Shown: in pieces, positions 52,335 to 54,398 of the stretch
Layout: each line of letters starts with the position of its first letter
Numbering within the stretch: position 1 is the stretch's first letter
NCBI GenBank assembly: GCA_902762305.1
Contig: CACWNW010000001.1
Span: 186,001-250,000 of the forward strand
DNA from: Fibrobacter succinogenes
GTDB taxonomy: Bacteria; Fibrobacterota; Fibrobacteria; Fibrobacterales; Fibrobacteraceae
Direction of reading: 5' to 3'
Length of the DNA: 64,000 bases
Made by a program: the position numbers and the translations under genes
Notes under the pieces: generated by a model
The model's input: only the letters and a program-made list of their open reading frames with translations
The model's database searches: none
What the model was told of the DNA's origin: nothing

Positions 52335-53114
52335 CTAGGGTTTGCGTCCGATGACGCCGATAGAGAGCTGCGTATAGTGCATCACGGGGACAGAGACCAG
52401 GGCATCGAGCATCGCGTCCTTCGCCTTCTGGTACAAGGTCCCGTTCAGGGGATACTTCGGGAGTTCGACACCAAGCTTGAAGCCCAGTTCGCGCAACATG
52501 CGGTAGAACAGGTTCGGGCGCATCCAGTCGCCGTAAGCGTATTCGCACTTGAATCCGGCATCGACCATCAGCTTCTTCAACTGCCCCATGGTGAACTGCT
52601 TTTCCCATCCGGCGAACCACTTGTCCATCGCGATAAGGATATGCTTGATGACCGTGTAGGGGTGCACCGTCTGCGGCACGTCGCAGAGGCAGCAACCGCC
52701 GTGCTTCAGGATGCGGTAGTTTTCCTGGATGAGCGGGAGCGAGTTCTTGAAATGTTCCGCCAGGCCCTGGTGGAAGACAAGGTCGAAAGTGCAATCGGGG
52801 AACGGAGCCTTGAACGCATCACCGCGCACAAGCTTCAAATTCTCGTAAAGGTTCTCGCGGGCACGCAGGCCGTCTACTATCTTGAGGCTGTTTTCGGCAA
52901 AATCGAGCACATAGACTTCGGCACCCAGGCGCGCAAGTTCTGCACTGTCGCGACCCGTACCGGCGCCCACTTCGAGCACCTTCAGCCCCTCGAGTTTAAA
53001 ATTCTTTTTGATGGCGTTCAGCACGGACGGCGAAGACGGATAAACCTTCCCCATGTCGTTTTTCCGCTGCCAGAAACGGTTCCATACAGATTGATCAGGC
53101 TCTTTAATTGACAT
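52335..53114 (-). CDS. Class I SAM-dependent methyltransferase
   Basis: 259 aa from ATG 53114 (MSIKEPDQSVWNRFW). Motif I is VLEVGAGTGRDSAELARLG with acidic VYVLDFAENSL, followed by LVRGDAFKAPFPDCTFDLVFHQGLAEHF (motif post-I and II). A variable C-terminal lid with several aromatic residues suggests a small molecule or lipid substrate. Its partner gene is the flippase-like protein seven bases downstream. Substrate unknown. Confidence 0.85.
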   Translation of the reverse strand: MSIKEPDQSVWNRFWQRKNDMGKVYPSSPSVLNAIKKNFKLEGLKVLEVGAGTGRDSAELARLGAEVYVLDFAENSLKIVDGLRARENLYENLKLVRGDAFKAPFPDCTFDLVFHQGLAEHFKNSLPLIQENYRILKHGGCCLCDVPQTVHPYTVIKHILIAMDKWFAGWEKQFTMGQLKKLMVDAGFKCEYAYGDWMRPNLFYRMLRELGFKLGVELPKYPLNGTLYQKAKDAMLDALVSVPVMHYTQLSIGVIGRKP

Positions 53115-53365
53115 AACGGGCAAAATATACGAAAATGGCAATCCAGAGACGAACCCGCGCAGGCGGAAAAATGGATGTTTGCGCCCAAACGGGACAAGGA
53201 GAAGCTCGTACACGCCCGCCCAACTTTACAAATTTCGTGACATTTGTTACATTTTATGACAAAACTCACGTTTTACAGACGCTTTTCAAGGACTTCCGCC
53301 GTGAAAATACCCCCAGAACCACGATAAAACCGCTTTTTACAGAATTCGACTAAAAATTTACACTT

Positions 53366-53382
53366 TTGGCACGTTACTTGCT
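53366..53382 (+). promoter_or_regulatory. Sigma-54 (RpoN) type -24/-12 promoter
   Basis: TTGGCACG, four bases, then TTGCT matches the RpoN consensus with GG (53368-53369) and GC (53380-53381) exactly 12 apart. The expected transcription start is near 53393, giving a leader of about 27 bases to the sigma-factor ATG at 53420. No rpoN or enhancer-binding protein gene is in the window. Confidence 0.7.
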
Positions 53383-53419
53383 AATAAAAAAAGCGATATT
53401 TAAGGTGCAAGGAAATAAA

Positions 53420-54232
53420 ATGCATATAGATTCCACCGATACTACACTTAAACGTTACCTCGAAGACATTAGAAGGACCGCCCCCCTTTCCCGTGAAGAA
53501 GAGCAGATCCTATTCCAGAAAGCGAAAGAAGGTGACAAGATTGCACGCAAGAAGTTGATTTCCGCGAACATGCGCTTCGTTTTGAAGGTCGCCATCCAGT
53601 ACCGCGGCTGCCCCATCCCGCTCCCGGACCTGGTGAGCGAAGGCGCCATGGGCCTCGTTCGCGCTATTGAATCCTTCGAACACACCCGCGGCCTCAAGTT
53701 CATCAGTTACGGCGTGTGGTGGATTAAGGCTTACATCACCCGTGCCATCAACGAGCAGGGTAACCTTATCCGCCTCCCGGCAAACCAGCACCTGCGCGTG
53801 CGCAAGGCTTTGCACGAACAGTCCCGCGGAAAAGAGATTAACGAAGAAATTCGCGAGCTCATCCAGATTGGCCAGCGCGGCGTTTCTTTCGACAGCCCCC
53901 TGAAGGCAGATTCCAAGGCGACCTACGCCGAAGTTCTGCCCGATACCGGTGCCACGAACCCAGAAGCCGACTCCGAAATCCAGAGCGTCGAAGTTCTCGC
54001 ACGCGACTTGATGGAACAGCTCCCCGAACGAGAAGCGAAGGTCATCACCGGCATCTTCGGTATCAACCAGGAAGCCCCGCAGACGTTGCGCGAAGTCGGC
54101 GAGTCCATGAACATCTCGCACGAACGCGTCCGCCAGCTGCGTGACCAGGCACTCCGCCGTATCCGCAAGTACAACAGCAAGGAATTCCTCCAAGAGAAAA
54201 AGGATGCGTTTTTGGCTGCGATTAACAAGTAA
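53420..54232 (+). CDS. RNA polymerase sigma factor, RpoD/SigA family (short, group 2-like)
   Basis: 270 aa from ATG 53420 with AAGGAAAT upstream; a longer frame from 53366 would overlap the promoter. Region 1.2 LKRYLEDIRRTAPLSREEEQ, region 2 ANMRFVLKVAIQYRG with GAMGLVRAIESFEHTRGLKFISYGVWWIKAYITRAINEQ, region 3, then region 4 LPEREAKVITGIFGI with the -35 recognition helix NISHERVRQLRDQAL. Region 1.1 is absent, which argues for an alternative rather than the primary factor, though short primary factors exist. A sigma-54 promoter upstream suggests a regulatory cascade. Confidence 0.92.
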   Translation: MHIDSTDTTLKRYLEDIRRTAPLSREEEQILFQKAKEGDKIARKKLISANMRFVLKVAIQYRGCPIPLPDLVSEGAMGLVRAIESFEHTRGLKFISYGVWWIKAYITRAINEQGNLIRLPANQHLRVRKALHEQSRGKEINEEIRELIQIGQRGVSFDSPLKADSKATYAEVLPDTGATNPEADSEIQSVEVLARDLMEQLPEREAKVITGIFGINQEAPQTLREVGESMNISHERVRQLRDQALRRIRKYNSKEFLQEKKDAFLAAINK

Positions 54233-54362: not shown

Positions 54363-54391
54363 ATAGCCCGCAGAGAAGCGGGCTATTTCTC
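54363..54391 (+). terminator. Intrinsic terminator downstream of the sigma-factor gene
   Basis: A perfect 9-bp stem ATAGCCCGC/GCGGGCTAT with AGAGAA loop, then TTCTCTATTT. It is 130 bases after the stop codon. Confidence 0.85.
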
Positions 54392-54398
54392 TATTTAA

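Follow-up and report, generated by a model that had tools for sequence, protein, structure and literature searches.

A putative sigma-54 promoter before a sigma-70-family alternative sigma gene in Fibrobacter

Does sigma-54 switch on a further, sigma-70-family sigma gene in Fibrobacter, a genus of gut plant-fibre (cellulose) degraders? The question is raised by one locus in a 64-kb stretch of Fibrobacter succinogenes DNA (the window), where a promoter-like element stands before such a gene, here called W. The element and its conservation, rpoN, the activator genes, the co-occurrence of one activator (L006) with the element and a partial dyad are all read from sequence. We consider it probable that W is an alternative sigma transcribed by sigma-54 polymerase at 53366-53382, most likely via L006 from upstream dyads. 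In the proposed cascade, RNA polymerase with sigma-54 would start W transcription at this element, a dedicated enhancer-binding protein, most likely L006, would open the polymerase from dyads some 110-140 bp farther upstream, and the W protein would steer polymerase to promoters of its own, giving the order activator, sigma-54, W. The features of the locus are collected in Table 1.

Table 1. Features at the W locus and the candidate activator gene (window positions unless a contig is named)
Feature	Position	Strand	Remark
Half-sites GTGACA / GTTACA / ATGACA, putative enhancer	53237..53261	+	Place of the full dyad in 21/91 relatives' upstreams
Sigma-54 -24/-12 promoter element, TTGGCACG-TTAC-TTGCT	53366..53382	+	Exact match; kept before orthologs
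Predicted transcription start	53393	+	12 nt past the C of the -12 GC; inferred from sigma-54 promoter geometry
GATATT	53395..53400	+	Kept 10-12 nt past TTGCT in 86/87 distinct upstreams
AAGGA, likely ribosome binding site	53409..53413	+	Reading of sequence
W, sigma-70-family alternative sigma gene	53420..54232	+	Pfam Sigma70_r1_2, r2, r3 (part), r4
Possible intrinsic terminator, 9-pair stem and T-rich tail	54363..54396	+	Such sites no commoner than in shuffles
L006, orphan AAA+ activator, 440 aa	G000:C1:313-1632

The element, TTGGCACGTTACTTGCT at 53366-53382 on the plus strand, matches the sigma-54 -24/-12 pattern used here (TTGGCACG-N4-TTGCW) at all of its 13 fixed positions. Its GG (53368-53369) and GC (53380-53381) lie 12 bases apart, as claimed by an earlier, sequence-only reading that had called a sigma-54 promoter at this place, and 37 nt separate it from the W ATG at 53420. 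It is the only match with 0 or 1 mismatch in the 64-kb window. When up to 2 mismatches are allowed, the window holds 7 matches against 4.0 +/- 2.0 in shuffles, a count within chance, so that only the exact match stands out. Downstream of W, the possible terminator would make the gene a single-gene unit.

Of the 61 family genomes, 60 supplied a W gene, G043 (62% complete) giving a weak match only, and 45 of the 60 keep the element before W (at least 11 of 13 positions, no more than 250 nt from the start). That an exact match is kept in this way while the flanking upstream DNA diverges leaves next to no credence for a functionless chance match, even though 9 of 100 shuffles reach the window count of 7. 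Element positions 1-6 and 13-17 are invariant in 87 distinct upstreams and N4 varies, an invariance that is in part by selection, as these upstreams had been picked for having TGGCA and a match at 11 or more of the 13 positions. The motif might also be coding, since the frame is open from a TTG at 53366 and W would then have 288 aa; however, the motif-to-ATG distance takes 14 values (35-93 nt) and moves through all three frames (39, 36 and 12 of the 87 distinct upstreams), and a ribosome-binding-like AAGGA sits before the W ATG. The frame-shifting distances rule out the coding reading, which we give practically no weight.

Among named loci, of which 80 of 204 were kept, those of Fibrobacter succinogenes MAGs and of F. 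intestinalis ATCC 43854 carry the exact element. Families f3 and f5 carry a weaker form, GG-N8-TTGC, 52-72 nt before the W start in 11 of 11 loci, where shuffles expect 0.12; the same search gave 0 of 19 in the upstreams of g5, g6, g8, g11, G013, f2 and f4 (two f4 starts being uncertain). Given the weaker element in the former and none in the latter, sigma-54 control of W seems to date back to the ancestor of the class, with losses in some lineages. By reading, genomes without the element before W (G005, G006, G035, G011) have sigma-54 sites before flagellar genes (loci L318, L320, L325, L330, L331 and L336), and loss of the W element may accompany a motile way of life.

A different arrangement would have W transcribed mainly from a sigma-70-type promoter that overlaps the site or lies upstream of it, with the sigma-54 holoenzyme at 53366 playing a minor or even a blocking part. 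It could draw on sigma-70-like matches at 53108-53136, 53225-53253 and 53336-53364, on TTTACC-N17-TATATT-like sequences seen by reading in g5 relatives without the element, and on repressive sigma-54 sites reported in E. coli (PMC8743547). The matches nevertheless number three against 1.1 +/- 1.0 in shuffles, and the upstream DNA that would carry a -35 is unconserved while the -24/-12 element is conserved; we therefore regard this arrangement as quite unlikely. The spacing of the hexamer GATATT to TTGCT (10-12 nt) holds even with a longer leader. As a sigma-70 -10, GATATT was rejected: by reading, no conserved -35-like hexamer lies 17 nt upstream, a place that belongs to the variable N4.

Transcription of W by sigma-54 polymerase, the preferred reading, presupposes the corresponding machinery. 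The own genome (3.6 Mb, 57 contigs, 95% complete) encodes an intact rpoN of 568 aa (L001, at G000:C6) whose AID, CBD and DBD Pfam domains are all over cut-off, together with eleven Sigma54_activat matches, seven of them strong, so that both rpoN and the activators for which the sequence-only reading had proposed a search are present. All 61 family genomes examined have rpoN; in G000, G001, G049 and G056 its DNA-binding domain match is split in two by a proline/alanine-rich stretch. A genome-wide scan for the motif, likewise proposed in that reading, returned 13 exact and 14 one-mismatch matches, 27 in all against 5 for a reversed-pattern control, and the sigma-54 pattern is over-represented genome-wide.

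An open reading frame starts 10-163 nt downstream of 12 of the 13 exact sites. The N-terminal parts of the products behind exact sites match Hsp90-type ATPase, Cpn10 (groES), Hsp70 (dnaK), GATase_2, P-II (glnK), GSIII_N (glnA) and DAP epimerase in Pfam, with htpG and gltB named by reading; the classical sigma-54 targets glnA, glnK and gltB are among these genes. Genes with Clp_N (clpB by reading) and Hsp20 matches follow one-mismatch sites. A GrpE-like protein behind a sigma-54 site is named by reading only, its 110-aa part having no Pfam match, and further Pfam matches behind such sites are SpoVG, Gp49, PDDEXK_2 and GIY-YIG. The own genome thus appears to run chaperone and nitrogen genes by sigma-54, to judge by its predicted sites. 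In relatives, the pattern also stands before flagellar genes (by reading of translations).

Several of these sites have dyads or other repeated elements nearby. Chaperone loci with sigma-54 sites are L019, L021, L030, L040, L043 and L044 (htpG, groES, dnaK, clpB, hsp20 and grpE-like), and GTTTC-N-GAAAC dyads are found close to htpG, hsp20 and grpE, as well as to groES and grpE of G003. Sites and dyads together suggest a putative heat-shock regulon under sigma-54 and an activator of its own; because the dyads are found at only 3 of the 6 own chaperone loci, we make no regulon claim. At glnA and, in two genomes, at gltB (L027, L029, L344), TTTAC-N-GTAAA dyads precede the sigma-54 site by 109-131 nt and are likely to be the site of a nitrogen activator. 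Another enhancer-like module, a GATAAATCAGTGATTTAAGCGATTAATCACC-like element, is placed roughly 60-90 bp upstream of five sigma-54 sites (L024, L025, L031, L033, L035), before Gp49, SpoVG, GIY-YIG and two PDDEXK_2-type genes.

Which activator would act at W? L006 matches Sigma54_activat at 219 bits and HTH_8 (Fis-type HTH) at 28.8 bits (cut-off 22), and GAFTGA is read in its sequence; its first 125 aa have no Pfam match, and the protein has no Pfam receiver match. Its gene comes after proC, rho is close by, and no kinase adjoins it (two loci, by reading of translations). Enhancer-binding proteins of the own genome and 12 relatives were compared in a tree of 65, where the L006 clade has 7 members and an SH-aLRT of 100. 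Orthologs, called at no less than 300 bits across the 61 family genomes, were found in 45; a 255-bit match in G011 covers residues 110-433 only and is placed elsewhere in the tree. All 45 genomes with the W element have L006 and none of the 15 without the element does, a co-occurrence that amounts to only 3 independent changes, each of them in agreement (sign test p 0.25).

It is possible, though we doubt it, that the element is real and used and that another activator, for example of the universal L005 or L007 type, opens the promoter, L006 merely sharing the lineage history. The small number of independent changes would fit this, as would the f3 genomes, in which the weaker element is kept without L006. 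On the other side, L005- and L007-type activators occur also in genomes that have lost the W element, and G002, G003 and G007 own just three activators each at E <= 1e-25, one per type (L005, L006, L007). For families f3 and f5, where two f3 genomes examined have no L006-clade activator and the dyad described below is missing from 11 of 11 upstreams, another activator must presumably serve the weaker element, or the site is inactive there. A role for L006 as activator of the chaperone genes is disfavoured: G011 and G006 are without L006 yet keep sigma-54 sites before groES and hsp20.

The candidate DNA site for L006 is a dyad, TGTCAY-N6-RTGACA, found in part of the W upstreams and mostly 109-142 bp upstream. 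In the relaxed form WGTCAY-N6-RTGACW it is present in 21 of 91 distinct 150-nt W upstreams (22 dyads in 13,650 bp), starting 109-142 nt before the motif in 19 cases and at 71-91 nt in 3, against 0 in 407,538 bp of other loci. It is absent from 24 upstreams without the element, paralogs included. Upstream of W in the own 64-kb window the full dyad is lacking, its place being taken by the half-sites of Table 1. The 30 L006 loci show neither the W-type dyad nor a sigma-54 site (at least 12 of 13). We infer transcription from the element, L006 binding to the dyad, and a regulon and a signal for W.

The W frame (53420-54229) encodes 270 aa, and its sigma-70 regions 2 and 4 score 50.5 and 53 bits in Pfam (cut-offs 24 and 24.1). 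The best NCBIfam match is RpoS (TIGR02394, rpoS_proteo) at 193.2 bits, under the curated cut-off of 378.7; RpoH (TIGR02392) gives 125 bits, under 323.1. By score, W belongs with neither FliA nor RpoH, nor is it an ECF factor. The sequence-only reading had described it as an RpoD-family factor without region 1.1. Pfam confirms that W has no region 1.1 match, but neither has any of the genome's three RpoD-like sigmas, so the absence is nothing special, and W is not the primary RpoD, for which C15 is the better candidate.

C15 and C37 are W paralogs in the own genome, at 36-40% identity. W was considered as primary (group 1) sigma on account of its high conservation and rejected: the C15 sigma is matched in 78 of 80 phylum genomes, by a single match in 76, with 45-57% identity outside the class, whereas W relatives at 60% identity or more are confined to the class, identity outside it being about 36-39%. 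Being phylum-wide and mostly single-copy, C15 is taken as the presumptive primary sigma. Within the family, all 12 genomes in which both were compared show higher conservation for W than for C15 (93 vs 81% in G017; 95 vs 85% in G007). Region 3 of W falls short of its C15 and C37 counterparts by about 20 aa, and its region 2.4 reads WWIKAYITR, kept in 62 of 64 ortholog rows, where solved SigA proteins have WWIRQAITR; these are residues that we take to be the readers of the -10 element. On the strength of both differences, W probably has its own promoter preference. In two f3 genomes (G072:C3, G074:C51) the W and C15-type sigma genes lie about 3 kb apart; in the own genome they are on different contigs.

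A bolder proposal, which we think unlikely, would make W a class-wide master alternative sigma with a changed promoter preference. Selection on W would be tighter than on the primary sigma, and within the family only orphan L006, which might sense a non-phosphorylation signal, would switch it on, with GATATT at the transcript start as part of a W feedback. The sigma-54 to sigma-70-family cascade itself, put forward in the sequence-only reading, gains support from rpoN, the activators, the conservation of the predicted element in the family and its weaker form elsewhere. That reading also held such a cascade to be undescribed for Fibrobacterota. The main texts of PMC12316311 and PMC3162934 do not mention Fibrobacter, and a literature search on the genus, in which subscription papers were thinly covered, found no report of a sigma-54 or alternative-sigma circuit. 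The type of cascade is already known, from Borrelia and from surveys; the Fibrobacterota example, as predicted here with good comparative support, is one for which we found no report. A conserved cascade from activator through sigma-54 to sigma, with a candidate activator and DNA site, offers a testable entry to Fibrobacter gene control.

In Proteobacteria, hrpL is a further sigma gene under sigma-54 control. FliA, hrpL and rpoH resemble the present case in that sigma-54 stands upstream of another sigma gene, and differ from it in that W is by score no FliA, ECF factor or RpoH. A table of E. coli sigma-54 targets includes rpoH (PMC8743547), and sigma genes of COG1191 and COG0568 have been associated with sigma-54 (PMC12316311). 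For Bacteroidota and Planctomycetota, the latter survey also places groES, grpE, dnaK and small heat shock genes behind sigma-54 sites; such sites stand before chaperone genes in this Fibrobacter genome too, although the reported cases belong to other phyla and Fibrobacterota are not named in the survey's main text. The closest outline is that of Borrelia burgdorferi, to which the sequence-only reading had compared the locus. There, the enhancer-binding protein Rrp2 and sigma-54 start rpoS transcription (PMC11109971, PMC2940757); no gene other than rpoS is known to have a sigma-54 promoter, Rrp2 is described as the sole activator (PMC11109971), and the title of a reference cited in the same paper calls Rrp2 enhancer-independent. 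In both systems an enhancer-binding protein and sigma-54 would drive the gene for a sigma-70-family alternative sigma, so the comparison stands in outline, but the own genome has 27 sites and seven strong activators, some of the relatives carry an enhancer-like dyad, and W, although it scores best against the RpoS model, stays far under the cut-off.
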